The position numbers and the translations under genes were made by a program. From a virus: 32,467 nt of DNA. The stretch covers positions 1-32,467 of the IMG/VR virus record IMGVR_UViG_3300033388_003383. One strand, 5' to 3'. Position 1 is the first letter of the stretch. Every line of letters begins with the position of its first letter. The notes beneath the pieces are model-generated. The model had not been told where the DNA came from, searched no databases, and was given only the letters and a program-made list of their open reading frames with translations. Below, one piece after another: positions 33 to 19,214 of the stretch.

Positions 33-675
33 CGAAACCTCCTTTTTTAAGAGAGGGCTGCCCAGACCCTCGAAATTTAACTATCACGTTGAGCGATAAG
101 GAGGAGGAATCGCCCGCGATAGTATGGACAACTGACGGGTGCGCAGAGCAGATATGAAGCTTGACGGGATTCGAACCCGCGCATTTCCCCTTATCGGGTG
201 GCCTATTTCCTCCGGCTACAAGCCTCTTCTTACGAAGATCAGTTATTATTACGTACGATCTGGGCAAATATTGACGAACTGTCTCCGCTCCTTTAGTGGT
301 ATATAGGGTACCAAGGACTTTGGTGATAAACCAAAACTCACCAAGGCAATTCTCGCCTAAAAATAGCGTAACACCTTCCTTTGCGTCTTTGCGACATATA
401 AGCCAGATCGGTTCTTTCGGTTTGGTCAGAACCAGGTTTTTTATGGAGTCCTCGTCTGTCTCGACTTTTCCATAGTTTTCTGGATCGGATGCGAGGGGCA
501 CCAAATCCAGACTTTCTGGGTGGCGAACACCCCAACAAGCATTGTCGTCCGAATCCTTAACGGCCCATAACCAAGCACCAGTCAAAAGATCCTTTTTCAT
601 CCTTATCAATCCGAAGGTTTTTCCCGCGAACCGCTCGTCTCCAACATTTTTATTAAACGTAATTCTTTGACCCAT
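1..675 (-). CDS. Partial hypothetical protein, runs off left edge
   Basis: An open frame of 225 codons starts at ATG 675 and reaches the window edge without a stop. A strong ribosome binding site (AAAAGGAGATTTGAAA) sits just upstream. The protein begins MGQRITFNKNVGDERF. Residues 1 to about 150 look like a normal soluble protein with many Trp and charged residues. I do not recognise a family. The part after about residue 150 is less protein-like: it crosses a tRNA-like sequence (156-225, read as AGSNPV) and then a second strong ribosome binding site with an ATG at 32 in another frame. The real gene may therefore end earlier through an undetected frame change, or simply overlap its neighbour. 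The first 150 codons are fairly secure; the 3' part is uncertain. Confidence 0.6.
   Translation of the reverse strand, partial: MGQRITFNKNVGDERFAGKTFGLIRMKKDLLTGAWLWAVKDSDDNACWGVRHPESLDLVPLASDPENYGKVETDEDSIKNLVLTKPKEPIWLICRKDAKEGVTLFLGENCLGEFWFITKVLGTLYTTKGAETVRQYLPRSYVIITDLRKKRLVAGGNRPPDKGKCAGSNPVKLHICSAHPSVVHTIAGDSSSLSLNVIVKFRGSGQPSLKKGGFDEHVCWYCARG
156..225 (-). tRNA. tRNA-like sequence, probably degenerate
   Basis: On the minus strand a 7-bp acceptor-like stem (AGGCTTG with CAAGCTT), a D-arm-like stem (GCC/GGC) and a good T-arm (GCGGG-TTCGAAT-CCCGT) are in the right order. The middle is too short: only 20 bases lie between the D and T arms, and the best anticodon helix is CCC-GATAA-GGG with a 5-base loop instead of 7. 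One missing base would give an Ile(GAT)-like loop. CCA is not encoded. It lies inside the open frame 1-675. It could be a decayed tRNA, an attachment-site remnant derived from a tRNA 3' half, or chance. Confidence 0.3.
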
Positions 676-2896: not shown

Positions 2897-2920
2897 TAAG
2901 CCCCTTGTTACGGGGGCTTA
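2897..2920 (-). terminator. Terminator of cassette 9
   Basis: TAAGCCCC and GGGGCTTA form a perfect 8-bp stem with an 8-base loop, followed on the minus strand by TTATTTG. It ends the transcript of 2939-3298. Confidence 0.75.
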
Positions 2921-2938
2921 GGGGGGGGTCCGATCCTT

Positions 2939-3298
2939 TTAGGAATCGGAGGCATCCTCGTCTTCGTCATCGAGGTCGAGTTCTACCTTGTCTTCATCTT
3001 CGTCTTCGTCATCTTCCTCCTCGGTGTCCGAGGTGAGCGCAACGACGATTGCGGTTCCAACGGCGCCAACGAAAGCGACTCCGGTAACTCTCCAGAAGAA
3101 ATCGCGGTTGTCGCGTCCACGAAGGTATTCGTGGTAGGCGTTTTTCGCGGCATCATCAAGTTTCTTATACTCGGATTCTTTTTCGCTGGGCTCGAGGCTC
3201 AGCAAGCGGGTGTTAATCGCTTCACCCACGGGGGCGGTGGGGAATGGATTTCGAAAAGTAGGACGGGAAGGTAATCGTTCTCTAATGCTTTCAAACAT
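2939..3298 (-). CDS. Membrane protein with very acidic C-terminal tail
   Basis: 119 residues from ATG 3298 (ribosome binding site AAAAAGGAGACAG). An N-terminal polar half contains a helical segment (LEPSEKESEYKKLDDAAKNA) that loosely resembles the PGT-E-Y/F-A-L motif of the paralogues at 4731-4976 and 5080-5355. One membrane helix spans about 68-90 (FFWRVTGVAFVGAVGTAIVV). The last 30 residues are almost all Asp and Glu, ending DEDASDS. It is the last and largest member of the cassette array, with the shared promoter at 3331-3359 and a terminator at 2897-2920. Function unknown. Confidence 0.8.
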   Translation of the reverse strand: MFESIRERLPSRPTFRNPFPTAPVGEAINTRLLSLEPSEKESEYKKLDDAAKNAYHEYLRGRDNRDFFWRVTGVAFVGAVGTAIVVALTSDTEEEDDEDEDEDKVELDLDDEDEDASDS

Positions 3299-3330
3299 TG
3301 GTCTGTCTCCTTTTTGGGTCTATAGGTTTC

Positions 3331-3359
3331 GGTTTCTATTATAGCCCCTGTGATTTTCG
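3331..3359 (-). promoter_or_regulatory. Array promoter element, copy for 2939-3298
   Basis: Minus strand: TTTTCACAGGGG? variant reading AATCACAGGGGC, then TATAAT, then AGAAACC. The element ends 32 bases before ATG 3298. TATAAT is intact; the base before it is C. Confidence 0.7.
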
Positions 3360-3402
3360 TTGAATCCTCTAATTTTTGACTGCTCTCTTCTTTTAGGAAA
3401 AT

Positions 3403-3425
3403 ATAAACCCCGTGAGGGGGTCTAT
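3403..3425 (-). terminator. Terminator of cassette 8
   Basis: ATAGACCCC and GGGGTTTAT pair (one G-U) around a 5-base loop on the minus strand, followed by ATTTTCC. It overlaps the TAG stop of 3422-3541. Confidence 0.75.
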
Positions 3426-3541
3426 ATTACAGATTCTTCTAAATTGAGCTGTTTTATTATGTCATCAAATCGATTTGCTTCCTTGCGCATCGCCCAGGCT
3501 ATGGACGGTACTACGATGGCTAAAGCGATAAGACTTAACAT
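3422..3541 (-). CDS. 39-residue membrane miniprotein
   Basis: ATG 3541 starts a 39-residue protein beginning MLSLIALAIVVPSIAWAM, ending in TAG. The N-terminal 18 residues form a hydrophobic anchor and the rest is an amphipathic charged tail (RKEANRFDDIIKQLNLEE). A longer reading from an upstream ATG would run through the promoter element, so the short start with AAAAAGGAGAC upstream is preferred. It has its own promoter (3571-3599) and terminator (3403-3425). Function unknown. Confidence 0.7.
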   Translation of the reverse strand: MLSLIALAIVVPSIAWAMRKEANRFDDIIKQLNLEESVI

Positions 3542-3570
3542 TTTGTTTTTTGTCTCCTTTTTAGGGTTTC

Positions 3571-3599
3571 GGTTTCTATTATAACCCCTGTGAAATCTG
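3571..3599 (-). promoter_or_regulatory. Array promoter element, copy for 3422-3541
   Basis: Minus strand TTTCACAGGGGT, TATAAT, AGAAACC; ends 29 bases before ATG 3541. The base before TATAAT is T, unlike most copies. Confidence 0.7.
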
Positions 3600-3619
3600 T
3601 GGTTTTTGAGGAGACAATT

Positions 3620-3646
3620 ATAAACGCCCGTGTTAGGGGCGTCTAT
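3620..3646 (-). terminator. Terminator of cassette 7
   Basis: ATAGACGCCC and GGGCGTTTAT give a 10-bp stem (one G-U) with a 7-base loop on the minus strand. The following AATTGTC is weak in U. It lies 34 bases after the stop of 3680-3805. Confidence 0.65.
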
Positions 3647-3679
3647 ATAGGGGTCCAAAATCCCTTTTCAATGGACAAA

Positions 3680-3805
3680 CTAGATTTTCTTCAGAAGCTG
3701 CCATTGTACCGCGGCGACGATAGCGATTACTGGTAGGGGTATTCCCACCACGAACATCACTAGTGCTACAATAACAACGAATCTCTTCTTTTTGTTTTTA
3801 ATCAT
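3680..3805 (-). CDS. 41-residue membrane miniprotein
   Basis: ATG 3805 with AAAAGGAGACAATCGA upstream encodes 41 residues ending at TAG. A Lys/Arg-rich N-terminus (MIKNKKKR) is followed by a long hydrophobic segment (FVVIVALVMFVVGIPLPVIA) and a short basic end (LLKKI), predicting one membrane helix with the N-terminus inside. Promoter 3830-3858, terminator 3620-3646. Function unknown. Confidence 0.7.
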   Translation of the reverse strand: MIKNKKKRFVVIVALVMFVVGIPLPVIAIVAAVQWQLLKKI

Positions 3806-3829
3806 TCGATTGTCTCCTTTTCGGGTTTC

Positions 3830-3858
3830 GGTTTCTATTATACCCCCTGTGATTTTCG
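3830..3858 (-). promoter_or_regulatory. Array promoter element nested in 3838-4023
   Basis: Minus strand AATCACAGGGGG, TATAAT, AGAAACC; ends 24 bases before ATG 3805. This copy overlaps the last codons of gene 3838-4023, whose TAA stop is part of the TATAAT box. Confidence 0.7.
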
Positions 3859-4023
3859 CGATTTCTTAACCGCTTTCTCACACAGTTTCGTATTCAAACA
3901 CCTAAGAGGCGACCCGTGGTGAATGACGCCATTGATATTTAGTATTGTATTTGGAAACGATCTTCCGCATCTATAGCATTTATGATCTATCCAAATGGAT
4001 AATTTGTTAAGCCCCTTGTTCAT
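3838..4023 (-). CDS. Small protein with zinc-ribbon-like cysteines
   Basis: 61 residues from ATG 4023 (GGGAGGCAGT upstream). CYRCG near residue 16 and a later Cys pair spaced six apart (CLNTKLC) make a plausible zinc-binding site, so it could bind nucleic acid or protein; this is inference. It is the only array member without a membrane segment and the only one lacking its own promoter element: it starts directly after the terminator of 4074-4229, so expression probably depends on readthrough. Its final residues (KSQGV) are encoded by the promoter of the next cassette, which suggests its own stop and terminator were lost. Confidence 0.65.
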   Translation of the reverse strand: MNKGLNKLSIWIDHKCYRCGRSFPNTILNINGVIHHGSPLRCLNTKLCEKAVKKSRKSQGV

Positions 4024-4043
4024 ACTGCCTCCCGGGTCAAAAT

Positions 4044-4067
4044 ATAAAACCCCGTGAAGGGTCTTAT
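4044..4067 (-). terminator. Terminator of cassette 6
   Basis: ATAAGACCC and GGGTTTTAT pair on the minus strand (one G-U) with a 6-base loop, followed by ATTTTGA. It lies just after the TAG stop of 4074-4229. Confidence 0.7.
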
Positions 4068-4073
4068 ATAGGT

Positions 4074-4229
4074 CTATATGTTACTAATTAAGCTGATTAT
4101 CTGGACCAGGATTAGCATTAGAATTCCCAGCGCTACGAGGAATGTCGTTACCAATACGCCGAATGTTACTACGGCCGTAATGGTAAGCATTGTGTATAGT
4201 GCTGAGATTCTGCTTTTAATCTTTTCCAT
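4074..4229 (-). CDS. 51-residue hydrophobic membrane miniprotein
   Basis: ATG 4229, preceded by TAAAGGAGATTTGAC, encodes MEKIKSRISALYTML followed by an almost continuous hydrophobic stretch to the end (LTITAVVTFGVLVTTF, then LGILMLILVQIISL) and a TAG stop. It probably has one long or two short membrane helices. Its leader is nearly identical to those at 4547 and 5355, so the cassettes share ancestry. Promoter 4256-4284, terminator 4044-4067. Confidence 0.7.
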   Translation of the reverse strand: MEKIKSRISALYTMLTITAVVTFGVLVTTFLVALGILMLILVQIISLISNI

Positions 4230-4255
4230 GTCAAATCTCCTTTAAAGTAAGGTTA

Positions 4256-4284
4256 GGTTTCTATTATAGCCCCTGTGAAACCCG
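4256..4284 (-). promoter_or_regulatory. Array promoter element, copy for 4074-4229
   Basis: Minus strand TTTCACAGGGGC, TATAAT, AGAAACC; ends 26 bases before ATG 4229. Confidence 0.7.
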
Positions 4285-4292
4285 TTGAAAAA

Positions 4293-4316
4293 ATAAAGCC
4301 CCAAGGGGGGCCTTAT
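4293..4316 (-). terminator. Terminator of cassette 5
   Basis: On the minus strand AAG, a bulged G, and CCCC pair with GGGG and CUU around a CCTT loop, followed by TATTTTTTC, a good U tract. Confidence 0.75.
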
Positions 4317-4326
4317 ATAGGTCTGA

Positions 4327-4434
4327 CTAGGCGAATAGCCAGCATCCGAATAATATTACTACAATGGCCCCGCCAACCACCATATAGGCGGTTATGCGGA
4401 GTAGTTCTAATGCGATTTTTTCGAATTGCTTCAT
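4327..4434 (-). CDS. 35-residue membrane miniprotein
   Basis: ATG 4434 with AACTAAGGAGAAATGAA upstream encodes 35 residues ending at TAG: a charged start (MKQFEKIALELLR) and a single hydrophobic helix (MVVGGAIVVILFGCWLF). An overlapping ATG at 4439 stops at once, so 4434 is the start. The leader matches that of 5475-5732. Promoter 4453-4481, terminator 4293-4316. Function unknown. Confidence 0.7.
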   Translation of the reverse strand: MKQFEKIALELLRITAYMVVGGAIVVILFGCWLFA

Positions 4435-4452
4435 TTCATTTCTCCTTAGTTA

Positions 4453-4481
4453 GGTTTCTATTATACCCCCTGTGAAACCTG
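4453..4481 (-). promoter_or_regulatory. Array promoter element, copy for 4327-4434
   Basis: Minus strand TTTCACAGGGGG, TATAAT, AGAAACC; ends only 18 bases before ATG 4434. This spacing equals that of the copy at 5751-5779, whose leader is also the same. Confidence 0.7.
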
Positions 4482-4498
4482 CGGAAAATGAAAAATAT

Positions 4499-4520
4499 AA
4501 AGCCCCGGTGAGGGGGCTTA
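4499..4520 (-). terminator. Terminator of the empty cassette
   Basis: AAGCCCC and GGGGCTT pair on the minus strand with a 6-base loop, followed by TATATTTTTC. It has the same form as the other array terminators although no gene precedes it. Confidence 0.7.
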
Positions 4521-4541
4521 TTTGTCGACCGGAACACTCAA

Positions 4542-4547
4542 TTACAT
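4542..4547 (-). other. Empty cassette: start codon followed by stop
   Basis: Downstream of promoter 4574-4602 and of ribosome binding site TAAAGGAGATTTGAC, the ATG at 4547 is followed immediately by TAA. Only about 20 further bases separate this from the terminator at 4499-4520. The leader is the same as at 4229 and 5355, where real genes follow. It looks like a cassette that has lost its coding sequence, or a unit producing a short untranslated RNA. A chance GTCGAC lies in the remnant. Confidence 0.6.
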
Positions 4548-4573
4548 GTCAAATCTCCTTTAATGTGGGTTTC

Positions 4574-4602
4574 GGTTTCTATTATACCCCCTGTGAAATC
4601 CG
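4574..4602 (-). promoter_or_regulatory. Array promoter element, empty cassette
   Basis: Minus strand TTTCACAGGGGG, TATAAT, AGAAACC; ends 26 bases before ATG 4547. Upstream, between this and the terminator at 4648-4671, lies an A/T homopolymer-rich spacer of about 45 bases. Confidence 0.7.
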
Positions 4603-4647
4603 TGTTTTTTTTCGATTTTTTTTTGCGGAGAAAATTTTGGGAAAAAT

Positions 4648-4671
4648 ATAGAGCCCGGTTGGGGGCCCTAT
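4648..4671 (-). terminator. Terminator of cassette 3
   Basis: ATAGGGCCC and GGGCTCTAT pair (one G-U that exists only on the minus strand RNA) with a 6-base loop, followed by ATTTTTCCC. Confidence 0.75.
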
Positions 4672-4730
4672 ACTTTGATTCCACCTCCTTATTTAATTAG
4701 AGGATTGAAGATATATCGCCTTGGTTGTGC

Positions 4731-4976
4731 TCAGTCGTTCTTGGTTTTACGCATCAATATAGCGGTAACCACGGTTCCGGCGACTCCGATAAGCGCTGGA
4801 TTCTTGAGGAACCAGTCGAATCTTCCAGAGAAATCTGGTCTTTTGTAGATTTCTGCTTGAAGAATGACTATGCTCATCATTTCATCCAACGCCCTATCGA
4901 ATTCATCGGTGCCGGGTTCCACTTTTTCAATGTGCTCCACGACTCGATCAAACGCTTTCCAGGTTTGTTTTATCAT
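4731..4976 (-). CDS. Single-pass membrane protein, PGT-motif paralogue 1
   Basis: 81 residues from ATG 4976 (GTAAAGGAGAAACAGA upstream). An N-terminal helical half contains VEPGTDEFDRALDEM, followed by a loop and one membrane helix at about 59-76 (NPALIGVAGTVVTAILM), ending RKTKND. It matches 5080-5355 in motif, order and size, so the two are paralogues. Similar helical PGT/VGT-E-Y-A-L plus C-terminal membrane-helix proteins occur in phages of Gram-positive bacteria, from memory and without known function. Promoter 5008-5036, terminator 4648-4671. Confidence 0.8.
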   Translation of the reverse strand: MIKQTWKAFDRVVEHIEKVEPGTDEFDRALDEMMSIVILQAEIYKRPDFSGRFDWFLKNPALIGVAGTVVTAILMRKTKND

Positions 4977-5007
4977 TCTGTTTCTCCTTTACTAAATTAG
5001 GGTGAAT

Positions 5008-5036
5008 GGTTTCTATTATACTCCCTGTGATTTTCG
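5008..5036 (-). promoter_or_regulatory. Array promoter element, copy for 4731-4976
   Basis: Minus strand AATCACAGGGAG, TATAAT, AGAAACC; ends 31 bases before ATG 4976. It has the only A within the G run. Confidence 0.7.
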
Positions 5037-5045
5037 TGAAAAAAT

Positions 5046-5068
5046 ATAAGGCCCTGTGGGGACCCTAT
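5046..5068 (-). terminator. Terminator of cassette 2
   Basis: ATAGGGTCC and GGGCCTTAT pair with two G-U pairs on the minus strand and a 5-base loop, followed by ATTTTTTC. The same stem sequence recurs at 5815-5839. Confidence 0.75.
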
Positions 5069-5079
5069 ACTTTGAAATC

Positions 5080-5355
5080 TCAACTCCTTCGTATAAACGA
5101 TCTTACCGAAGATGTTATTATATCCGTTTTCTCAAACTGGAGCATTGCCACGCTGACTATGAGCGTCACGATTCCATTTACTACTGGAGCATTGCCCGCT
5201 ATTCGAGTAAGGCGAGAAGGGGGTTCTAGTTCCTTTTTCATCGCCTCAATCTTTATAAGCGTATTATATGCTTCCAGCGCGTCTTTGTACTCGCGCGTTC
5301 CGGGTCGTTGGGATGCTAAGTAGTTTATAGCGTCCGGTATAATATTTTCTTCCAT
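5080..5355 (-). CDS. Single-pass membrane protein, PGT-motif paralogue 2
   Basis: 91 residues from ATG 5355 with ATAAGGAGATTTGAC upstream. Residues 10-45 are helical and contain RPGTREYKDALEAYNTL, the counterpart of EPGTDEFDRALDEM in 4731-4976. A Pro/Arg loop follows and then one membrane helix at about 55-74 (APVVNGIVTLIVSVAML). The C-terminus is basic (FIRRS). Own promoter (5385-5413) and terminator (5046-5068). Membrane location is predicted; role unknown. Confidence 0.8.
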   Translation of the reverse strand: MEENIIPDAINYLASQRPGTREYKDALEAYNTLIKIEAMKKELEPPSRLTRIAGNAPVVNGIVTLIVSVAMLQFEKTDIITSSVRSFIRRS

Positions 5356-5384
5356 GTCAAATCTCCTTATATGATGTGGGTTTC

Positions 5385-5413
5385 GGTTTCTATTATACCC
5401 CCTGTGAAAACCG
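5385..5413 (-). promoter_or_regulatory. Array promoter element, copy for 5080-5355
   Basis: Minus strand TTTCACAGGGGG, TATAAT, AGAAACC; ends 29 bases before ATG 5355. Confidence 0.7.
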
Positions 5414-5422
5414 TTAAAAAAT

Positions 5423-5444
5423 ATAAACCCCGTGTGGGGTCTAT
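5423..5444 (-). terminator. Terminator of cassette 1
   Basis: ATAGACCCC and GGGGTTTAT pair around a 4-base ACAC loop on the minus strand, followed by ATTTTTTAA, a strong U tract. Confidence 0.8.
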
Positions 5445-5474
5445 ACTAATTCCTCCTATTTGAAATTCTGATGG

Positions 5475-5732
5475 TTATTTTTTCCATTTCGTCTTTATCA
5501 TATGCCACACAAACTTTATAGTATAGTATGGTGCGGTGAATAGCGATAAGAAAGAGCACAGGATTATCCAGGCTACGATATGTCTGTTCGTTTTAGAGAC
5601 TCTTTTTGTTAAGTCATCTAGATCGATCATCATTGTTCCTAGAAAAGCCTCTCTCTTCGCATGGTCTGTTTCGACCGCATAACAGTACTGCAATTGTGCG
5701 TAGTTAAGTAAAAGGTGGATGGTTTTAAACAT
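5475..5732 (-). CDS. Single-pass membrane protein, cassette 1
   Basis: 85 residues from ATG 5732, preceded by AACTAAGGAGAAATGAA. The N-terminal 48 residues are polar and probably helical, followed by a hydrophobic stretch at about 48-75 (HIVAWIILCSFLSLFTAPYY) and a basic tail (MIKTKWKK). This is the first and rightmost unit of the array, with promoter 5751-5779 and terminator 5423-5444. No family recognised. Confidence 0.8.
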   Translation of the reverse strand: MFKTIHLLLNYAQLQYCYAVETDHAKREAFLGTMMIDLDDLTKRVSKTNRHIVAWIILCSFLSLFTAPYYTIKFVWHMIKTKWKK

Positions 5733-5750
5733 TTCATTTCTCCTTAGTTA

Positions 5751-5779
5751 GGTTTCTATTATACCCCCTGTGAAACCTG
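5751..5779 (-). promoter_or_regulatory. Array promoter element, copy for 5475-5732
   Basis: Minus strand TTTCACAGGGGG, TATAAT, AGAAACC; ends 18 bases before ATG 5732. The upstream 30 bases to the previous terminator are A-rich on the minus strand. Confidence 0.7.
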
Positions 5780-5814
5780 CGTTTTTTCAGAAATTTTTTT
5801 CGCGGGGGAAAAAT

Positions 5815-5839
5815 ATAAGGCCCTGTGAAAGGACCCTAT
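5815..5839 (-). terminator. Terminator closing the tail operon
   Basis: ATAGGGTCC and GGGCCTTAT pair with two G-U pairs on the minus strand and a 7-base loop, then ATTTTTCC. It follows the stop of 5845-6105 by six bases and separates the late tail genes from the cassette array. Confidence 0.75.
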
Positions 5840-5844
5840 ATCTT

Positions 5845-6444: not shown

Positions 6445-8331
6445 TTATACTAGGAAATTGAACGCCATGTACACTTTTTCACCTTCGGTAGTATATGAGC
6501 GAACTATCTCAACTACTCGAGCCTTCACATCCTGTCCGTGCATAACGCACTGCACCAGGTCCCCCATAAAAAAGTCCACACCATAGATAAAAATTCCTCG
6601 AGTTTCAAAGTCTCCTTCGAGGAGGCCGACTGGCGGACTTTCTCTTATTACTTCTGCGCCTCTGGTTTGAATAATAGCCAATATCTGCGCGGCGGTTAGA
6701 TCGTCAATATCGTCATCGTCAATATCTTTATCTATCGTGGTATCCAAACGACCCTCAAACCTGTCTAATCCGACAGGTTCTGACCCCTCTATCCACACGT
6801 AATTCTTTTGTGTAACGGGCGCCTCGTCGGGATCGCCAGGAATTATCTCAGTGACCACAAGTGTCACGTTCCTTTTGTCCTCTTCCGACGAATAAAACGA
6901 ACTTGTCAAAACGTATGAGCTTTTCAGAACATTGTCATACACGTCTGAAAATATAACTAAATCATTCTCTGACTGTCCTGAAGAACGATCAACTCCTCCG
7001 TAAGTATAGAAATATAACTCGGAATCAGAAGAAGCCAAGTCTTTAACTACAATCTTGAATCCCAAATCGGCCGTTTTACAAAGAAGTTCGATAATTTCAT
7101 AAACGTTTTCCGAATCAAATTGTTCGCTAATTGGTTCCGATGATAGCATAGCCGGAGGCCACACAGCAGGGTCCGCAGTATCAAAAAGAGCTATCTCTCT
7201 ATTTGTATCAGTCGGAGATCTTATGTTGTCATGAACAAGAATATAAGCCAATAACTCTGCTGACCCATCGTAAGTGACTAGCGAGTTTAATATTCGCCTC
7301 TCTAATATACTTTCTGCCGACCGTCCACGAATCAATAGACTAGCCTTATCGGTCGAGATTTCTGGTTTCTTTTCTTCCACAACCATAAGTTTATCGGAAG
7401 TATTAATATATAGAAAATTACCAAAATCTAATAGAAAACTATCCTCATAATCTATAGGCAATTCTAATTCGAAGTCGCCAAGCGTATTGTATCGTTCCGC
7501 CCAATTTAAAGAATAATAGTCTTCTATTAAACCGATCTCTTCAAGGTCGCTATTAAAAACATGCACTAGGGGTATTGCTACTTCTGTATTGATAGCGATT
7601 GTTGGCGGCGGACTTAGGCTTATATCTTCATATCGACGACCCCAACCATAATTATAAAGCCAAGCGCGTTCTTCGCTGGTTAATAGGCGCTGATTGTAGA
7701 AAAAGAGCTCGTCTACCAGACCATCATGCCACGTGGTTTGGTCTTCATTTGTACCGACGTAAAAGTCGGTTGTTCCGATGCGTATACCATCGCTTGGGCC
7801 GGCTGCGGTATCAAAAACATCATTAACACCCACCCCGACCGTATTAGAAACCGGATCAAAGTAACAAACCAAAAAATACCAATTTCCGTTAGTTAAAGCA
7901 CCGAAAGTATCCGCCGTAACATAATAAGTAGTTGTATCTGCGGCATTTCTCACCGAAAAAACTATCTTAGAGTTAGCGCCGTTTAAATAACATTGGTATT
8001 CTCTACCTCCCGCCGTCGTCTCCCATTTGCCGAATATTACAGAAAGGACTGTAACAGCATGGGGTTTTATCCACATTCCCCAAGTCATTGGCTCATCAGC
8101 TACCGCACGAAGTTGGAAAAGATCCGCGTGTGATAGAGATTCGCTGTTTGAGCCAACGAAATCCGCGCAACCACCAGAAAATATAGATCTAGTTTCTCCG
8201 TGTGCCCAACCAACCCCATTGTTGTCAGTTAATTTTAAAACCCCAACCCCATCGACCTCGTCATAACGAAATCCAGAAACTTCGTCTAGTCTCCAATAAG
8301 CTTTCAGGTTTGTTATTCCTGGATTTGACAT
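6445..8331 (-). CDS. Gp37-like tail protein with N-terminal LamG-like domain
   Basis: 628 residues from ATG 8331 (CCAAGGAGTTTAAT upstream). Residues 1-235 form a LamG/concanavalin-like jelly roll: AYWRLDEVSG at the start, MTWGMWIKP in the middle, and the typical closing DGLVDELFFYNQRLLTSEE. From about 245 the protein matches, from memory, the siphovirus ReqiPepy6 Gp37-like family of baseplate or tail-tip proteins: YYSLNWAERYNTLGDFELEL, then LLIRGRSAESILERRIL, ending in a beta-rich region (FFMGDLVQCVMHGQDVKARV). It lies right after the distal tail gene, as expected for a tail-tip or tail-associated protein. The LamG domain likely binds host surface sugar. Confidence 0.85.
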   Translation of the reverse strand: MSNPGITNLKAYWRLDEVSGFRYDEVDGVGVLKLTDNNGVGWAHGETRSIFSGGCADFVGSNSESLSHADLFQLRAVADEPMTWGMWIKPHAVTVLSVIFGKWETTAGGREYQCYLNGANSKIVFSVRNAADTTTYYVTADTFGALTNGNWYFLVCYFDPVSNTVGVGVNDVFDTAAGPSDGIRIGTTDFYVGTNEDQTTWHDGLVDELFFYNQRLLTSEERAWLYNYGWGRRYEDISLSPPPTIAINTEVAIPLVHVFNSDLEEIGLIEDYYSLNWAERYNTLGDFELELPIDYEDSFLLDFGNFLYINTSDKLMVVEEKKPEISTDKASLLIRGRSAESILERRILNSLVTYDGSAELLAYILVHDNIRSPTDTNREIALFDTADPAVWPPAMLSSEPISEQFDSENVYEIIELLCKTADLGFKIVVKDLASSDSELYFYTYGGVDRSSGQSENDLVIFSDVYDNVLKSSYVLTSSFYSSEEDKRNVTLVVTEIIPGDPDEAPVTQKNYVWIEGSEPVGLDRFEGRLDTTIDKDIDDDDIDDLTAAQILAIIQTRGAEVIRESPPVGLLEGDFETRGIFIYGVDFFMGDLVQCVMHGQDVKARVVEIVRSYTTEGEKVYMAFNFLV

Positions 8332-8332
8332 A

Positions 8333-9798
8333 TTAAACTCCTTGGAATTTGGGACGGAAAACGAGTTCAGTATTTACTTTGGTTCCGATCATTTCCAGAT
8401 ACGTCCTACCATAATCAGTAGGAAGCCCGCGGTTGTAAACAAAGTCTCTTTCGTCTGAGGTAAGCATTCTATCATAGAATATAAGTGCCTGCAGTTTTCC
8501 ATCAAAGTATTGGGAGGACCCCGATCTTCCACCAATCGTAAGCACAGAACTATAAGTATCTAGATAGCCGGTAACGCTTGTCGCATAACTATCCGCTCCA
8601 TCGTTCAATCGTGCCCCTATTCTGTCTGCTGCGCTATCCCACCAAAAATGTACATGTGCCCAGGTATCTGTTGGGAAGGATGGAATTGTTACATTAAACC
8701 AAGAACCCGGGTAGCCCGGAGCGAGCTGAAGCCCGAATCTAAGATCTCCTGTGCCGTTGTAGACCTCCCATCCGTATTTAGTATCGGTCGAACGTATTAT
8801 ATCCGAACTAGAAACCACAGTTTTTTGATTAATCCAAAAAGACATGGCAAAGTCTCCAAGAGGATTAAAGTCGGCGTCAGGAGTACCATTACTAAAATAG
8901 GCGGGTCTAGATGGGTCCCATTCTCTTGCGTGTTCGTATAAGTTCGGTGGACCGGGCCCGTGAAGTATTTGGTTTATCCCGGCAGCCGTAATCAGTTCCT
9001 TACTAGCATGAAGGCCCACAGTGTTTGCTAAATCGTTATCTTCGTTAAGCGCAAAATATTCAACTATAGCATCATCCGGACTGTCTGGATCGGTAGTACC
9101 ATCAAAAGTCACCTTAATGACATTATCTCCAGGAAGAAGTTCTATCCAATCCTCAGAAATACCAACGGAACCGAGTATGTCGTCTTGAGTTTCGCCATCG
9201 CCGGCTTCCAAGATAATACTCTTCAAATTTACACGAGTATCAATATAGATCTTCCAACCCGGCTCAACGTCAGGGACAATCGCTGTAAGATCTATTGTCA
9301 TGCTTTGAGTATCCCTGTCGTTGGTTATAACTATTTCCGTTCCATTTCCGCTTCCAAGGGTGAGGGTCATTTGAACCCCGGTGCGAAAGTCTCCTCCATA
9401 AACTACGGTTTCTTCCACTTCAGAAAGGAATTCCTCCTCCTCCTCTAACAAGTCTAGAAACCACGGGTCAGGGCAAAAAAGCCCAATAACGGCGTTCTCC
9501 ACCTTAGCAAATTGATTCACTTCATTCGATTCAACGATAGCCGGTATATAGACATCCTTTGTGCCAGTGGTTATCCCTAGAATAATGGTTTCCTTTACTG
9601 GGAAGTAGTCATATCCGTCCTTACGAAGCTCGCTCGAATACCGTCATAACTAGGTCCCGCTGCGCCACTAACCGTAGCATTAGGAGGGCCCAGTCCTGTC
9701 ATGTTAAAAACGAGGAGCCCGTGTGTTCTTTCCGAGCTCCTCAAATTTAACTCGAGAGTGTCTTCGTTAGGGTTTGTAACCCATAACGTTTCTATCAT
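8333..9798 (-). pseudogene. Distal tail protein (Dit-like) with LamG domain, frame broken
   Basis: The gene starts at ATG 9798 (overlapping the tape measure stop as ATGA) with MIETLWVTNP and MTGLGPPNATV, typical of Dit-like N-termini, but stops at TAA 9595-9597. The same family continues in the -1 frame, open from 9643: DGYDYFPVKETIILG, then VESNEVNQFAKVENAV and CPDPWFLD. The two frames overlap by 48 bases and about 20-25 residues of the usual fold appear to be missing, so a short deletion with frame change is likely. An ATG at 9520 would make only the C-terminal part. The C-terminal 210 residues are a LamG-like domain (closing DGKLQALIFYDRMLTSDE), as in 6445-8331. A sequencing or assembly error is possible. 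Confidence 0.75.
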
Positions 9799-12700
9799 TT
9801 CTCTAATACCTTCCTTGACAATGTTGCTATTTGTGTTCTGGTTTGTCTATAGATCGCGGCCCTATCTAAAGTCTTTGGTGAATAATTATATTGATTATAA
9901 ACAACACCATCTTTACCCGAGCCATCCTCCGAGGTATCGTTGTCCAAACTATCCGTTTGTTTTCCGATATTAGTTAAGCTCGCGGGAATGGTAATATTCC
10001 CAAAGGCGCTCTGAATTAATCCCGCGCCTGCAGTAACATCCTTAAGGTCCACAACTGGGGCTATGAGTGGCTTAAACTCGATGGCCTCGTTGAGCTCGTC
10101 CGATAATAGAGAAACAAACGGTTCGAATTGTTGTTTCCCTTTTCTTATAAACTCTCCGAGAACGTTCTTAGTAGTGATAACACCGTGTCTAAGAGCGTTT
10201 ACTAAACCCGCAATAAGATTCTCACCAACTCGATAAGTCCATTTGGATGGCGAGTCCTCCTCAAAACCATCTTCCATTTCATCCTTAGCGCCGCTAACGA
10301 GATCCCAAATGGCGCCCCAAACTCTACCTACGCCTTCGACAATACCATTAACCAAACCAGTAATTATATTTGCTGCTATACTAAACCCGATTTCTACCGT
10401 TCTCTCTATGTTTTCTTCGCTGAAAACCTCTTCCTCGATGGTTTCAAGAAAAGTGAAGTACAACTCAACTGCCGAGATTATAACGTCTGGTAATCCGTCG
10501 GTTATCCCTTCGATGAAGTTTTCGATAATAGCGAGACCCGTAGTAACGACTTCTTGAATATTATCCTCAACACCGCGTAAGAACTCCATCAGAAGGTCCC
10601 AACCAGCGTCTGTAATTTCTTCATAAAGCTCAACAAGCTTCTCAAGTAAAATAGTAACAACATCAACAACCATTGTGCCAACCAGCTCTGTTATTTCTGG
10701 AGCTAGTTCGGTGATTCCCTCAATGGCCGTTAGAATAAGTGTTTTGAAGGCTTCTTTAAGTTCCGGAGCCCTCTCTGCTAATTCGACAAAGAAAGTTGTA
10801 ATTGTTTCAACAAACGCTATAGCCATCGCCGGTAGAATCTCGAAAACGACCGCACCAACAATCTTAATAGCCTCGCCGATAAGAATAGCGCTTCCCGCAA
10901 GGAGAACCAGGCCAGTTGCGGCCAACCATATGCCAACACCAAACAAAGCGGCACCCAAACCAATAAGCGCTAGAGCAATACCGAACGCCATTAGAACCCC
11001 CACTACTGGAGCCAACAAATAGCCCGCTACAATGAATATAAGTAGTACCGCAGCTATTCCGATGATGGCTGTTATTAATTCCTCCATTGGGATCGACCCA
11101 ATGAGTTTCAAAGCAAGGCCCATTATAACAAGGGCTGCTGCCATAACTATCATTGCGAGAGCCCCGGGCAGGGCGTTCTTCATAAGAAATCCGGCTATCG
11201 CAAGTAACACTATTACCGCAGTAATGGCGATTAAACCAATAATAAGTTCATCGAGTTGCATAGAACCGAATGCTTCTACTGCCTTGAACATAACAAGAAG
11301 CGCAAACCCCATGACTAACATTGCCAACGCGGCCTCTAAGATTTGTTTTGTTTTTATCCCTTGGGAGAACACCACCATACCTAATAGAAGTGCTCCTACG
11401 GCAATGAGTCCTTGCTGTAAGACGGCCGGATCTAGAATTCCGAATTTTAGAACAGCTTCCCATAATTTTTCCATTGACTTTGCTACGGCGAGCATAGCTA
11501 AGGCAGCTTTAAGACTACTATTCTTTTCGCCACCGCCTCTAGATAAACCAATCATAGCAAGGGTTAATATACCCAATGCCCAAGCAACTCCCTGTAGGCC
11601 CGCTGCCAGAATATCTGGATCGGTTGCTCCAAAGAGTTTTATAACCCCCCACAACGCTACGAGGGCTATTGCCATACCCTGCATAACTGCTATGGTTTTT
11701 AAAGTCCCAGCACCACCAACTTTCATCCCTTTAACCGCTACAACTAAGGCAGTTAAGGAAATCACTATAGCCTTTAATCCGGTATCTATTTCCTCGGGAT
11801 CAGCTCCTGATATAATTCTTAAAGCAACGGCCATAAGAGCGACAGCAGCGGCTAAACCGATTATAGCGATCGAGGCCTTTATTGCATCTTGTGGTCTTAT
11901 GTGTTTCAAAGCACCGGAAGCTCCGAATAACGTAGCAATCATAACCGCTATTGTTCCGGTGGCCTGTTGGAGCTTTGAACTATCTATTAATGTGAGCAAG
12001 AACACGGAGCCCGCAAAGATGGCAATTGCTGTTGCTATCTTTTGTAGTGTATCTGCGCGTATATTGTTCTGGAAAGATCCCAGAGTTCCTTCTAGTCGAT
12101 CGAATGTGTCTATGAAGACCTCTCCGAAATCAGAATCATCGATAATACCAGATATCCAATCCCCACTTGCAATCTTTCGTATAGACAGAACAAATCCGGC
12201 CAATAGTCCAGTGTTAATTATATCAAATAGGTGGGAATAATCGATCTTATCGGCATTTTTAGCGAGATAGTCGAAAACATCCGTTATACCATCAAGCATT
12301 CCGCCGGCTACTTCTTTTGCCTTTTCTGCGACATCGTCAAGAGTTTTTCCAAGCCACACACCAAATTTCGATTCTTTTAAAGTGTCTATCCAATTAAAAC
12401 CTTCTTTAGCATCGGCTCCAAACTGCTTTATCCGACGACCATCAAAAGTATTAACTAACCCGAGAAAAGACTCAACAACGTCAGAATTACGCAATTCCTC
12501 CCAGAATTCCTTAATTTTCACAATCGTCTCATCTATAAAAGTACCAAAATCTCCAAGAGCCTTAATACCACCATCGCGAATCTCGCTGAAGAATGACCCT
12601 ATCTCAACAGCTAAATCTTTGAAATATTGGGCTGTGGCTTTCCAATCTATGCTCTTAAACCAAGAGACAATATCCTGAACAATTTTGAGTTTAACTATCT

Positions 12701-14435
12701 CTAAATATAGAGTCTTTGCTCCAATTGCTAGAAGATAGAACGGCGCTATAACGGCTTTTAGGACTACCAAAAGTCCATCCCAAAGTTTAATAAAATCTGC
12801 GCGTTCTAGATCTTTAAACCACTGAATAACGTCTTGAACGACGTCTAGATTAAAGAATTGTTGAATCAGTTCACTAACCCTATCTCTGAGATTTCTTATA
12901 TGACTAACAATTGTCTCTGCTACGGCTGTGAAAATATTCATTCTGACAGCCCACTCTCTCCAAGCCACGATAGAGTCGGCCACCGTAGCTAGAAGAGACC
13001 AGATACCGCCCTCTACTAATTGTACCCCTCCAAAAAGCAAGGATATTACCCTTGCTCCGGCGCGAATAATTCTAACGAATATATCAACTACAGCAGCAAC
13101 ACCGCGAACAATGCTTTTAAATTTGTCGAGATTTTTAGTTCCTATTCTAAACCCGGCAGCAAATCCCGCGAATCTTTGAGTAAGTTGTATTAGGTCTATA
13201 ACTTCTAGCGGTGCGAAAATATCAGCGACAGCCTCTTTAAAGGCCTTAAAAATATTAACACCACCTTCTAAAAGATCAAAGAGACCCTTTATGGCCATGT
13301 TTCGCCCGCCGCTTTCCGACCAGCCTTGTATAAGAGCGTTTCGTGCGTTAGCGTCTTCCTCGATTAATCCACCGAGAACATCGGCTACACCACCCCACAA
13401 CTCTTTGGCCTGTTCGAAATCTCCAAACACCCAGCGCCAGGTTTGGGCCCATCCACTTTGGAGGGCCTCTTTCATAGTGTCAACCAACTGAGTTACCGTC
13501 TTAATCTTTGTTGCGGCATCCAGGGCGGTTTCTGCTTGTGCTTGAATACCAGCTATTTGCTCCTCATTATACCCCATTCTTTCTAATTCGGCGTCGGTTA
13601 AGTCGCCCGTTAGTTTGTTTAGGGTTTCAAGTAGAAATTCGGAACTAATCCACCCGCTCGATAGAGATTCTCTAAAGCTTCCAGCATCAGCGATCATATC
13701 GTCAATCGCAACTCCGTGAACCCTAGCTGTATCCATAAGAGCATCTTGGAATACCTGGCCGCCCATACCGGCATTCACCACACTATTCCAGTCCTGCAAT
13801 TTAAGAGAACCAGTAGATATAGCCTGACTTAACTGATACATGGCTGTTGACGCTTGTTGTGAGGTCGAGCCCGAGAGCGCGGCAAGGTTTGAAATACCCT
13901 TAATAGCCGCGACACTCGTATCTAACTCCACACCAGCAGCTGTGAATTTGCCGATATTTTGTGTCATCTGAGTAAAATTGTAAATGGTTAAATCGGCGTA
14001 ACGATTCAATTCATCAAGCGCCCCATTTACGTCACTTAATGTCGATCCGGCTTTTTGTGTATTAGCCAGAATCGTCTGGACGGAATTAAGTTGTGTCTCA
14101 TATTCTTCTAGGCCCGTAGCAATTGGATCGAAAAGAACAACCTTAGCTAACGATTTTGCCCCACTTATAACGCCCTCTGTAATTTTTGCCATTACTACGC
14201 CAGCGGCGACGCCTATTAGGCTTAGTTTGCTGTTTATGGAGGCTAAACTATCCTCCATCATACTGAAATCAAGCCTTGACATATCGCTCAAGTCATCTAG
14301 CGTTTCTTGCGCCCTGGTAAAATCAAATTGTTTCTTGAAGGATGATAGTTGGTCCGTAGATTGAATAACGCCATCCCTAAACTTCCTGGCGTCGAACTCT
14401 AGTTGGACAATATTTTTTTCAATTGTGGTGCTCAT
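9795..14435 (-). CDS. Tail tape measure protein
   Basis: 1546 residues from ATG 14435 with GGAGGAGGCCCTTCC upstream. Residues about 100-290 match the conserved tape measure N-terminal domain (LNSVQTILANTQKAGSTLSD, later STAMYQLSQAISTGSLKLQD and WNSVVNAGMGG). Helical, Trp-rich segments follow to about 780. Residues about 800-1210 are extremely hydrophobic, with many membrane-like helices (LITAIIGIAAVLLIFIVAGY), typical of the part thought to enter the host membrane. The C-terminal region is coiled and acidic. At roughly 0.15 nm per residue a tail near 230 nm is predicted. Starts and stops overlap the neighbours as ATGA. Confidence 0.95.
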   Translation of the reverse strand: MSTTIEKNIVQLEFDARKFRDGVIQSTDQLSSFKKQFDFTRAQETLDDLSDMSRLDFSMMEDSLASINSKLSLIGVAAGVVMAKITEGVISGAKSLAKVVLFDPIATGLEEYETQLNSVQTILANTQKAGSTLSDVNGALDELNRYADLTIYNFTQMTQNIGKFTAAGVELDTSVAAIKGISNLAALSGSTSQQASTAMYQLSQAISTGSLKLQDWNSVVNAGMGGQVFQDALMDTARVHGVAIDDMIADAGSFRESLSSGWISSEFLLETLNKLTGDLTDAELERMGYNEEQIAGIQAQAETALDAATKIKTVTQLVDTMKEALQSGWAQTWRWVFGDFEQAKELWGGVADVLGGLIEEDANARNALIQGWSESGGRNMAIKGLFDLLEGGVNIFKAFKEAVADIFAPLEVIDLIQLTQRFAGFAAGFRIGTKNLDKFKSIVRGVAAVVDIFVRIIRAGARVISLLFGGVQLVEGGIWSLLATVADSIVAWREWAVRMNIFTAVAETIVSHIRNLRDRVSELIQQFFNLDVVQDVIQWFKDLERADFIKLWDGLLVVLKAVIAPFYLLAIGAKTLYLEIVKLKIVQDIVSWFKSIDWKATAQYFKDLAVEIGSFFSEIRDGGIKALGDFGTFIDETIVKIKEFWEELRNSDVVESFLGLVNTFDGRRIKQFGADAKEGFNWIDTLKESKFGVWLGKTLDDVAEKAKEVAGGMLDGITDVFDYLAKNADKIDYSHLFDIINTGLLAGFVLSIRKIASGDWISGIIDDSDFGEVFIDTFDRLEGTLGSFQNNIRADTLQKIATAIAIFAGSVFLLTLIDSSKLQQATGTIAVMIATLFGASGALKHIRPQDAIKASIAIIGLAAAVALMAVALRIISGADPEEIDTGLKAIVISLTALVVAVKGMKVGGAGTLKTIAVMQGMAIALVALWGVIKLFGATDPDILAAGLQGVAWALGILTLAMIGLSRGGGEKNSSLKAALAMLAVAKSMEKLWEAVLKFGILDPAVLQQGLIAVGALLLGMVVFSQGIKTKQILEAALAMLVMGFALLVMFKAVEAFGSMQLDELIIGLIAITAVIVLLAIAGFLMKNALPGALAMIVMAAALVIMGLALKLIGSIPMEELITAIIGIAAVLLIFIVAGYLLAPVVGVLMAFGIALALIGLGAALFGVGIWLAATGLVLLAGSAILIGEAIKIVGAVVFEILPAMAIAFVETITTFFVELAERAPELKEAFKTLILTAIEGITELAPEITELVGTMVVDVVTILLEKLVELYEEITDAGWDLLMEFLRGVEDNIQEVVTTGLAIIENFIEGITDGLPDVIISAVELYFTFLETIEEEVFSEENIERTVEIGFSIAANIITGLVNGIVEGVGRVWGAIWDLVSGAKDEMEDGFEEDSPSKWTYRVGENLIAGLVNALRHGVITTKNVLGEFIRKGKQQFEPFVSLLSDELNEAIEFKPLIAPVVDLKDVTAGAGLIQSAFGNITIPASLTNIGKQTDSLDNDTSEDGSGKDGVVYNQYNYSPKTLDRAAIYRQTRTQIATLSRKVLEK

Positions 14436-17102: not shown

Positions 17103-18266
17103 TTATGCCGTCTTGGCCGTAACTAGCCGAATAGCGATGGCGCTCTTCGGATTAACCAATGCGCCCGAAACTCGCGTCTCGTACAAGTACTCGAGCTTAT
17201 TGAGATTAAGATCGAAGTCGTCAAAGAAGGACGTCTGGCCTCCGTTATCTGCACCAATGACGTAGTCCTTAAGATTCAGAATTACGCCCATCGTGGCTAC
17301 ATCGTAAGTGCCTGCTGCGATGGCTTCTCCGAGCTGATTAACACCTGTCGGATCTACAATGCTATCTTCTAGACCAGCCATAACAGGAATCTCGACGATC
17401 TTGCTAACGCGCATGGCGGCTGCCAGAGACTCCAAAGTATCATGGATTCGACGAGTGGTCGTATCGCGAACCAGCAACATCTTGCTGATCAGTGCTGGTT
17501 GGCAGAACAGCGTCGGACCGCCAGCGCCACGGTAATAACTCAGTGAAGCGGATATCATATCGACCATAGCCAGAATTTCGGCATCGTCAAATGCGGACCA
17601 GTCTTGTTCACCAGCAGGAACACTGTAGGTAACTTTTTGAGTATAAACATCGTCGTCGTTGTAAACAGGTCGCACGTTTGCCTTCAGGATTGCGTCATCA
17701 CCAGTATCATTGCGGCCGTCACTAATCAAAATCGCACGCGCCAACTCTTCTTCGAGCATCATACGCATTTCGGCCTTCAGCCAAACTATGACGTTGAAGT
17801 CGGTAATATCGAGAACATCGTCCCGATCCAACTTCTGCAGTTTGTAAATGGTCTGGGGAACCGTGGTTCTTTTCAGTACCGCGATGACCTCTTCCACCTT
17901 TGTATTTCCCGCCACAAAGCCCTTTGCCCGGGCGTCTGCTCCAGAAATATTTGCGTACCAACTCTTAATACGGCTGAATGGGCGGGGTCGAACGCCGTTC
18001 AACACGATTCGGACCCAACTCATATCGCGATCGGCGAAGAATTGAGGACCTCCTGGCTGAACAGCTCGGGCATCAGGGAACATGTAGTCGACATCAGTGA
18101 TACTGTGTCGAATTACATCATCGCCAACTTCTTTCTCGCTAAATACTTCGCGCAAAGAATGTGCGCGATGAGCCTTAGCCGACTGTAGAATATTCATTAC
18201 ATTTTCGTGAGCTACCGGATCTCTTTCCTGGCCGGTGTTCTCGAAAGGATTATAGTTTTTTGGCAT
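17103..18266 (-). CDS. Major capsid protein (nested start)
   Basis: ATG 18266, codon 317 of the fusion and in the same frame, has CACAAGGAGACACAGAA directly upstream, a ribosome binding site as good as any in the window. The product is 387 residues, beginning MPKNYNPFENTGQERDP. An N-terminal helical segment, the PGGPQFFADRDMSWVRIVL region and the closing LNKLEYLYETRVSGALVNP are typical of HK97-fold capsid proteins. Nested initiation would let the capsid outnumber the protease-scaffold part, as lambda does with Nu3 inside C, although there it is the scaffold that is nested. Confidence 0.8.
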   Translation of the reverse strand: MPKNYNPFENTGQERDPVAHENVMNILQSAKAHRAHSLREVFSEKEVGDDVIRHSITDVDYMFPDARAVQPGGPQFFADRDMSWVRIVLNGVRPRPFSRIKSWYANISGADARAKGFVAGNTKVEEVIAVLKRTTVPQTIYKLQKLDRDDVLDITDFNVIVWLKAEMRMMLEEELARAILISDGRNDTGDDAILKANVRPVYNDDDVYTQKVTYSVPAGEQDWSAFDDAEILAMVDMISASLSYYRGAGGPTLFCQPALISKMLLVRDTTTRRIHDTLESLAAAMRVSKIVEIPVMAGLEDSIVDPTGVNQLGEAIAAGTYDVATMGVILNLKDYVIGADNGGQTSFFDDFDLNLNKLEYLYETRVSGALVNPKSAIAIRLVTAKTA

Positions 18267-19214
18267 TTCTGTGTCTCCTTGTGAGATAGATTCTTCTGGT
18301 TCTTCCGACTCATCGCCATCTTCCGACTCATCGTCGTCTTCAGCCAATGTTCCGGCCAGATATTCAACAACATCTTTTTGTTTTTCAGTGAGCGTATCAA
18401 ATATCGCTCCCAGATCCTTGCCGTCTCCGCCGTCTTCACCCTCTGAATTGGGGGGTATCTCTCCATTCAAAGCACTGTGTAAAACAACGTCAACCGCCTC
18501 TCTCTGTTCCTCGGTTAAGGTAGCGAGAACGTCCGATATGGTTTCGTCCTCATGGGAGAGGGTCTCCTCTTCATCAGACTCGGCCTCTTCTTCGTCCTCA
18601 GAAACCTCCTCTTCAGCAGCATCGCCGCTTTCGAGCTCTTCTTCGAGCTCTTCTTCGCCCTCTTCTACCTTTTCCTCATCTTCGTCTTCCAGATCGATTT
18701 CAATAGGAATTCCGGAATGAATAATTAGCCCATCATGGACAAACGAATCCGGATCTAGGGGATCTTCTGAATGGCGAATAACTTCGTCAATTCTTGCGCC
18801 TGGGTTCTGACCATGAGGCACAAGGCTAACTTCTCTAATCACGCCGCCAGTAACTGAGCGCAGAGCAACAACGCCCGGGGCAAGCTCGAACCTTCCGACT
18901 TCTTCTACAATTTCATTTGCCCATATAGACAAACCTTCAATTGTTCCATCGTGTACAAGTTCTTTCGCCTGACGGCCTTCCTTTGTATTTGAAAACTTGG
19001 CATTACCTCTTACTCCGAGGGGTGACCCTTCGTTACGAGTTAGATCAATCTGACCCAAGATATTCGTGATGTCGCCATGTCTATGACGCCATACGATAGG
19101 CACTGTTTCGCCCTCTTGATGGCCAAAAGCATTATCTCTAATAACTCGTCCGTCGTCACACAGCACCTCATAGGCTGTGGCAATGCCAGAAAAATCATAC
19201 TTTTTCTTTGGCAT
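17103..19214 (-). CDS. Prohead protease-scaffold-major capsid fusion
   Basis: 703 residues from ATG 19214 (GAAAAGGAGTAATATACC upstream). Residues 1-150 are an HK97-type prohead protease: IVWRHRHGDIT supplies the candidate His (44 or 46) and DGTIEGLSIWANE the candidate Ser 96, followed by VIREVSLVPHGQNPGA. Residues about 170-316 are extremely acidic and helical, resembling a scaffold or delta domain. Residues 317-703 are an HK97-fold capsid protein. An internal in-frame ATG with a strong ribosome binding site begins the capsid part (17103-18266), so both a long fusion and a separate capsid may be made. Self-cleavage is expected during maturation. Confidence 0.9.
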   Translation of the reverse strand: MPKKKYDFSGIATAYEVLCDDGRVIRDNAFGHQEGETVPIVWRHRHGDITNILGQIDLTRNEGSPLGVRGNAKFSNTKEGRQAKELVHDGTIEGLSIWANEIVEEVGRFELAPGVVALRSVTGGVIREVSLVPHGQNPGARIDEVIRHSEDPLDPDSFVHDGLIIHSGIPIEIDLEDEDEEKVEEGEEELEEELESGDAAEEEVSEDEEEAESDEEETLSHEDETISDVLATLTEEQREAVDVVLHSALNGEIPPNSEGEDGGDGKDLGAIFDTLTEKQKDVVEYLAGTLAEDDDESEDGDESEEPEESISQGDTEMPKNYNPFENTGQERDPVAHENVMNILQSAKAHRAHSLREVFSEKEVGDDVIRHSITDVDYMFPDARAVQPGGPQFFADRDMSWVRIVLNGVRPRPFSRIKSWYANISGADARAKGFVAGNTKVEEVIAVLKRTTVPQTIYKLQKLDRDDVLDITDFNVIVWLKAEMRMMLEEELARAILISDGRNDTGDDAILKANVRPVYNDDDVYTQKVTYSVPAGEQDWSAFDDAEILAMVDMISASLSYYRGAGGPTLFCQPALISKMLLVRDTTTRRIHDTLESLAAAMRVSKIVEIPVMAGLEDSIVDPTGVNQLGEAIAAGTYDVATMGVILNLKDYVIGADNGGQTSFFDDFDLNLNKLEYLYETRVSGALVNPKSAIAIRLVTAKTA

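Follow-up and report, generated by a model that had tools for sequence, protein, structure and literature searches.

The stretch analysed here is the whole of IMG/VR virus record IMGVR_UViG_3300033388_003383, a linear fragment of 32,467 bases (hereafter the window), in which an array of very small genes follows the tail genes, its units headed by copies of one short element containing TATAAT. Judged from sequence, the nine elements appear to be promoters of one phage-specific class in a modular design, and a single-chain RNA polymerase (RNAP) of the phage, a protein of family PHROG 4291, probably recognizes them. Observed directly are the element and its rigid spacing, the units, their recurrence in related phages, the co-occurrence with the RNAP and a bias in the cargo.

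Nine perfect copies of TCACAGGGRNTATAATAGAAA lie in the window, at exactly the starts that an earlier note on this DNA had given for nine elements with an invariant TATAAT. A search with TTTCTATTATANYCCCTGTGA that allowed three mismatches returned nine matches, all with 0 mismatches, against a chance expectation of 0.00 (100 shuffles). The TATAAT, present in all nine copies, is on the minus strand, as are all small open reading frames (ORFs) of the array. A unit consists of the element, a leader with a purine-rich ribosome site, one ORF and a hairpin with a U-rich tail, the TATAAT-to-ATG distance being 25-39 nucleotides (nt). The eight cargo ORFs encode 35-119 amino acids (aa), and each of the eight contains a hydrophobic region, with Kyte-Doolittle means of 1.58-2.96 over the best 19 residues. 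The element at 4574 heads an empty unit: its leader is nearly identical to those of full units, with a ribosome site and an ATG, directly after which comes TAA. The note's description of modular mini-units with common promoter and terminators, eight of them coding and mostly for membrane proteins, is therefore borne out by these features, with the unit at 4574 lacking an ORF. The note had also held that the G-U pairs of the hairpins form only on minus-strand RNA; the minus-strand fold is indeed deeper for most of them (-17.9 versus -12.5, -16.2 versus -7.9, -16.8 versus -12.8 and -13.8 versus -10.7 kcal/mol, minus versus plus), but not for the stretches 4731-4597, 3680-3594 and 2939-2871. The features are given below; scores are those of the leave-window-out weight matrix described in the next paragraph, cargo ORFs are from the ORF list and hydropathy unless stated, and hairpins are from folds.

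5815..5841, minus: hairpin upstream of element 1, end of the tail operon
5751..5779, minus: promoter element 1, TATAAT invariant (score 15.4)
5475..5732, minus: cargo ORF, 85 aa, one hydrophobic segment
5420..5447, minus: terminator-like hairpin, U-rich tail (fold of 5475-5408)
5385..5413, minus: promoter element 2 (score 13.4)
5080..5355, minus: cargo ORF, 91 aa, hydrophobic segment near the C-terminus
5041..5073, minus: terminator-like hairpin, -16.2 (minus) versus -7.9 (plus) kcal/mol
5008..5036, minus: promoter element 3 (score 17.0)
4731..4976, minus: cargo ORF, 81 aa; C-terminal hydrophobic segment weakly resembles that of the 119-aa ORF (ORF list, sequence comparison)
4646..4674, minus: terminator-like hairpin
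4574..4602, minus: promoter element 4, unit without ORF (score 15.4)
4499..4519, minus: terminator-like hairpin of the empty unit
4453..4481, minus: promoter element 5 (score 15.4)
4327..4434, minus: cargo ORF, 35 aa, transmembrane (TM)-like
4292..4316, minus: terminator-like hairpin
4256..4284, minus: promoter element 6 (score 19.1)
4074..4229, minus: cargo ORF, 51 aa, TM-like
4043..4068, minus: terminator-like hairpin
3838..4023, minus: 61-aa Cys-rich ORF without its own element; stop codon inside element 7 (ORF list)
3830..3858, minus: promoter element 7, full TCGC box (score 18.6)
3680..3805, minus: cargo ORF, 41 aa, TM-like
3620..3648, minus: terminator-like hairpin
3571..3599, minus: promoter element 8 (score 16.7)
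3422..3541, minus: cargo ORF, 39 aa, hydrophobic N-terminus
3402..3427, minus: terminator-like hairpin
3331..3359, minus: promoter element 9, best match to the elements of other phages (score 22.3)
2939..3298, minus: cargo ORF, 119 aa, one TM segment and an acidic tail
2897..2920, minus: terminator-like hairpin closing the array

The exact element (as a 22-mer) had no match elsewhere in the viral and genome contigs searched. A variant of it occupies the equivalent place in relatives identified by their tape measure, and likewise in Arthrobacter phages Mudcat and Gordon, Curtobacterium phage Pippin15, Streptomyces phage ClubPenguin, Rhodococcus phage Poco6, Gordonia phage Chikenjars, Microbacterium phage Count, Lactococcus phages P118 and 1706, and environmental relatives. 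The general form is TCGC-N7-ACA-N5-TATAAT-GAGA with rigid spacing, in 5-14 copies per genome, on a single strand and downstream of the tail genes. The note had proposed searching viral contigs for the element and had regarded its absence from all related phages as refuting; the same design recurs in the relatives (13 loci counted). A weight matrix built from 78 elements of other phages, and none of the window's, ranks exactly the nine window copies on top (13.4-22.3; next match 8.1). Over 138 elements, information peaks at TCGCA (-31..-27), ACA (-20..-18), TATAAT and GAGA. The ACA-N5-TATAAT core is kept in the Lactococcus phages (TTTTACATACCCTATAATGA) as well as in the actinophages, and therefore does not appear to be tuned to the host. 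In scans with the long matrix all matches of a genome fell on one strand, which was that of the RNAP gene in the rows compared; the RNAP-positive annotated phages scanned gave 7-14 matches each, and five RNAP-less control phages gave 0, 0, 0, 0 and 1. Staphylococcus phage PVL (L152), a terminase relative, was kept outside the comparisons reported. Paenibacillus phage Toothless, which has no such RNAP annotated, carries a single strong match (L156:37427, minus) upstream of hicA of a hicAB pair; this is either a chance match or a borrowed unit.

The candidate polymerase is a protein of about 890 aa with which the genomes of the annotated relatives end. It has an invariant DFDGD motif and ends that resemble sigma70 region 4 or a helix-turn-helix (HTH), and it corresponds to PHROG 4291, annotated as 'RNA-dependent RNA polymerase'. 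It matches PHROG 8308, the family of YonO, across the DFDGD motif (E 2e-5), and occurs in 250 phage records, a set close to that with the tape measure. Co-occurrence was assessed on contigs selected by the DNA pattern alone, with the reversed pattern as a control; the pattern gave at least 120 stretches versus 16 for its reverse. The RNAP is encoded by 33/35 element-selected viral contigs of at least 40 kb versus 0/6 control contigs (hypergeometric p about 6e-6), the control contigs being shorter on the whole. In two contigs (G070 and G075) that have the RNAP and the element, neither the terminase nor the tape measure was matched; because they may be fragments, we did not take them as independent evidence. 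The nuclease-exonuclease-polymerase operon is preceded by a diverged element in 6/7 actinophages. At L108:36508, L110:36188, L111:45805, L114:45984 and L150:45887 such an element, with a short leader containing a hairpin, precedes the VRR-Nuc/exonuclease/RNAP operon, possibly reflecting autoregulation or a small RNA.

The units of the relatives show what this class of element precedes. Among 119 elements in 13 genomes or loci, 99 precede an ORF with a ribosome site (median 75 aa, beginning a median of 27 nt after TATAAT), and 54/99 of these ORFs are TM-like, versus 57/321 small ORFs elsewhere (18% background). ORF-less units carry tRNA genes or compact structured RNAs, so that the membrane-gene cargo proposed earlier describes the window but is too narrow for its relatives. 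Examples are as follows.

L111:14637-14709 (Poco6): tRNA gene in a unit
L149:25500-25566 (1706): tRNA gene in a unit
L113:20998-21053 (Chikenjars): tRNA gene in a unit
L140: two tRNA genes in units
L099:15008-15150: compact RNA (z -6.4)
L099:14772-14860: compact RNA (z -4.3)

At L099:14772-15150 three successive ORF-less units each have their own motif of about 28-32 nt, present in two or three tandem copies, and the RNAs are predicted to fold as two- or three-arm structures closed by a terminal stem; they are possibly RNA sponges or scaffolds. Phage P118 has two ORF-less units that are 96% identical (L112:23641-23731 and 28167-28257), a candidate duplicated small RNA. The window's cargo proteins had no clear homolog among the relatives compared and gave no family in a Pfam search, all matches falling below the cut-offs. 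Together with the emptied unit, the unconserved cargo agrees with the gain and loss of cargo foreseen in the note; it would fit rapid turnover.

Promoters recognized by host sigmaA start transcription about seven nt downstream of the -10 hexamer. In contig L140 two tRNA genes begin 3 and 4 nt past the hexamer. This spacing is too short for such a start, which would remove the 5' side of their acceptor stem. As expected of the regulon of a phage RNAP, one conserved and rigidly spaced promoter is repeated upstream of phage genes. We suggest that the PHROG 4291 RNAP, with its DFDGD motif, HTH ends and distant relation to YonO, would read the element, and that the window phage would encode this protein just beyond the right end of the fragment, since in its relatives a few kb separate the gene from the terminase downstream of it. 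Each promoter would give a short RNA that covers one cargo and stops at the unit's hairpin, and the common promoter class would switch separate cargoes on together, while units could be duplicated, emptied or refilled. As a guess, the cargoes may remodel the host envelope early in infection; the note had put forward superinfection exclusion or host envelope takeover as possible functions.

Several observations weigh against this reading. The element contains a perfect sigmaA -10 hexamer followed by a GAGA discriminator. Nearly all of its bearers also share the terminase and tape measure, so that co-occurrence alone cannot single out the polymerase, and another lineage-specific factor is possible; some RNAP-positive contigs, fragments or diverged, are without the element. 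The tRNA spacing was seen in two genes, both on one contig. A direct profile comparison of the RNAP with YonO was not significant, nor was a fold search with a low-confidence model of the RNAP, in which the top matches were RNAP beta-prime chains (E about 0.14). The alignment-based AlphaFold model used was mediocre (pLDDT 63.6), a single-sequence model was useless, and a sequence search of solved structures with the RNAP returned only HTH-type or chance matches. Pairing of the nt after TATAAT with the transcript 3' end, by which they would be transcribed, scored 0.52 versus 0.28 for shuffled sequences in a profile, but a composition-matched helix-start test did not favour it and it was not used as proof. 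Finally, no RNAP was found in the 32,467 bases of the window. This absence is expected, since the window ends only 1.8 kb upstream of its terminase; the distance from the end of the RNAP gene downstream to the terminase is about 4 kb in Mudcat, counted across the genome ends, and about 3 kb in G018.

The perfect TATAAT with its purine discriminator could instead be read by host RNAP-sigmaA, recruited by a phage activator on the TCGC and ACA boxes between -30 and -18, following the logic of MotA-dependent middle promoters. The boxes at -31..-27 and -20..-18 occupy the place of an activator that replaces the -35 contact, and among the proteins of these phages are several small ones of HTH or DNA-binding type. 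We nevertheless consider this unlikely: a start at +7 cannot be accommodated where tRNA genes follow the hexamer by 3-4 nt, the core is identical in actinobacterial and lactococcal hosts, and 33 of the 35 element-bearing contigs have a dedicated RNAP. Host promoters acting without any phage factor, as in independently expressed morons, would account for the optimal TATAAT, found in 9/9 copies, and for a terminator-like hairpin per unit. The class has neither a -35 box nor, with rare exceptions, an extended -10, however: TTGACA at 16-18 bp spacing occurs in 11/138 elements versus 13 and 14 in controls, and the TG of an extended -10 in only 4/138. With rigid conserved outer boxes and a single orientation confined to one lineage, this explanation is very improbable. 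Further still from probable is that the repeats are operators, stoperator-like, or recombination sites that shuffle cargo, with the TATAAT incidental. They are intergenic and in one orientation, and near-identical leaders could recombine, one unit being empty; against this, they hold a fixed place upstream of ribosome sites and tRNAs, contain no palindrome, and are most conserved at the melting-type hexamer and the ACA box.

Lambdoid morons are small genes inserted beside structural genes; each brings a promoter and a terminator, and the promoters are host sigma70 promoters unrelated to one another. The window's small genes likewise appear, from their sequence, to have a promoter and a terminator each, whereas all units share one phage-specific promoter. 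What the note had called moron-like and independent thus holds for the layout and probably not for the independence: the units do not look like classical morons, that is, autonomous genes driven by host promoters, but seem slaved to the phage machinery, because their promoter is without a -35 or extended -10 and travels with a phage-encoded RNAP. On balance, the note's interpretation is partly supported.

By its homologous terminase, capsid-protease fusion and tape measure, the window phage belongs to the 1706/Pepy6/AM-AU lineage. Coding in the window runs on the minus strand, structural genes first and then the array, as follows.

28892-30634, minus: terminase
19223-20461, minus: portal
17103-19214, minus: capsid-protease fusion
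9795-14435, minus: tape measure
6445-8331, minus: minor tail protein, next to which comes the array

A search for relatives of the tail protein adjoining the array returned none. A 1241-aa ORF (21228-24953, minus) built of many ATGITxNPVLDTPxLGQEHDL-type repeats is probably a tail-fibre-like protein. The stretch 156-225 (minus) is a weak match to a tRNA (27.5 bits versus a gathering threshold of 29; none by ARAGORN), with no element before it, and may be a degenerate or odd tRNA. The N-terminus of the RNAP, HYG(T/I)LRKSGRYPWGSG, resembles the HYGRKGMKWG motif of the protein upstream of the terminase (30642-31247, minus); this motif might be a tag for incorporation into the virion. Orf75 of phage 1706, an RNAP homologue by position and by a note in the Poco6 record, was deposited as a structural protein, which hints at packaging of the RNAP in the virion.

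The small-membrane-gene array itself is known in Arthrobacter clusters AM and AU (Klyczek et al., 2017; PMC5513430). Those arrays and that of the 1706-like Rhodococcus phages Pepy6 and Poco6 resemble the window's, in which small, mostly membrane genes also lie directly downstream of the tail genes (PMC5513430, PMC5759034). The promoter class is common to these genomes and the window; the window's exact element and cargo proteins were not found in the relatives. The word 'promoter' is absent from the AM/AU paper (PMC5513430), and no phage paper was returned when full texts were searched for the element in its actinophage form, although subscription papers such as the original Pepy6 paper could still describe it. 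The note's statement that it knew of no described phage locus with this design is therefore too broad for the array, but we found no description of the promoter in the literature searched.

The logic of motif-polymerase co-occurrence has a precedent, backed by start-site mapping, in Thermus phage P23-45 (PMC10770324), whose virion and non-virion two-barrel RNAPs are likewise accompanied by a lineage-restricted motif upstream of phage genes, present in RNAP-bearing relatives and absent without the RNAP. The RNAP family and motif differ from those described here, where polymerase and tape measure are separate proteins and the element is known from sequence alone. The single-chain RNAP YonO of SPbeta is a distant relative of PHROG 4291 over the DxDGD region; its promoter sequence was unknown in 2017 (PMC5467207), it transcribes one late operon, unlike a multi-unit array, and a scan of SPbeta at 50-90 kb gave no element match at the threshold used. 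The SAS/ESAS sequences of cluster K mycobacteriophages, with GGGATAGGAGCCC 3-7 bp before start codons, are similarly short, asymmetric, mostly in one orientation and directly upstream of small non-structural genes (PMC3203893). They differ in that GGGATAGGAGCCC contains no TATAAT and no per-unit terminators were noted, and GGGATAGGAGCCC is not present in the leaders of the window's units.

The promoter of the YonO-class and PHROG 4291 polymerases has apparently not been described, and the element provides one concrete, testable sequence for it. About 250 phage records contain the polymerase family, and among these are phages of Arthrobacter, Gordonia, Streptomyces and Lactococcus that are easily grown and whose small genes and RNAs may be found by using the element as a handle. 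A possible new orthogonal polymerase-promoter pair would be a further outcome. It is conceivable, if on the whole doubtful, that a new promoter class with its hexamer nearly abutting the start, read by a single-chain DFDGD/HTH RNAP that is maybe carried in the virion, drives open-ended cassettes across a large lineage of phages of Actinomycetota and Bacillota, with tRNAs, closed multi-arm RNAs and tiny membrane proteins as cargo. Through the element, an unexplained array of tiny membrane genes would become a co-regulated set with measurable timing.

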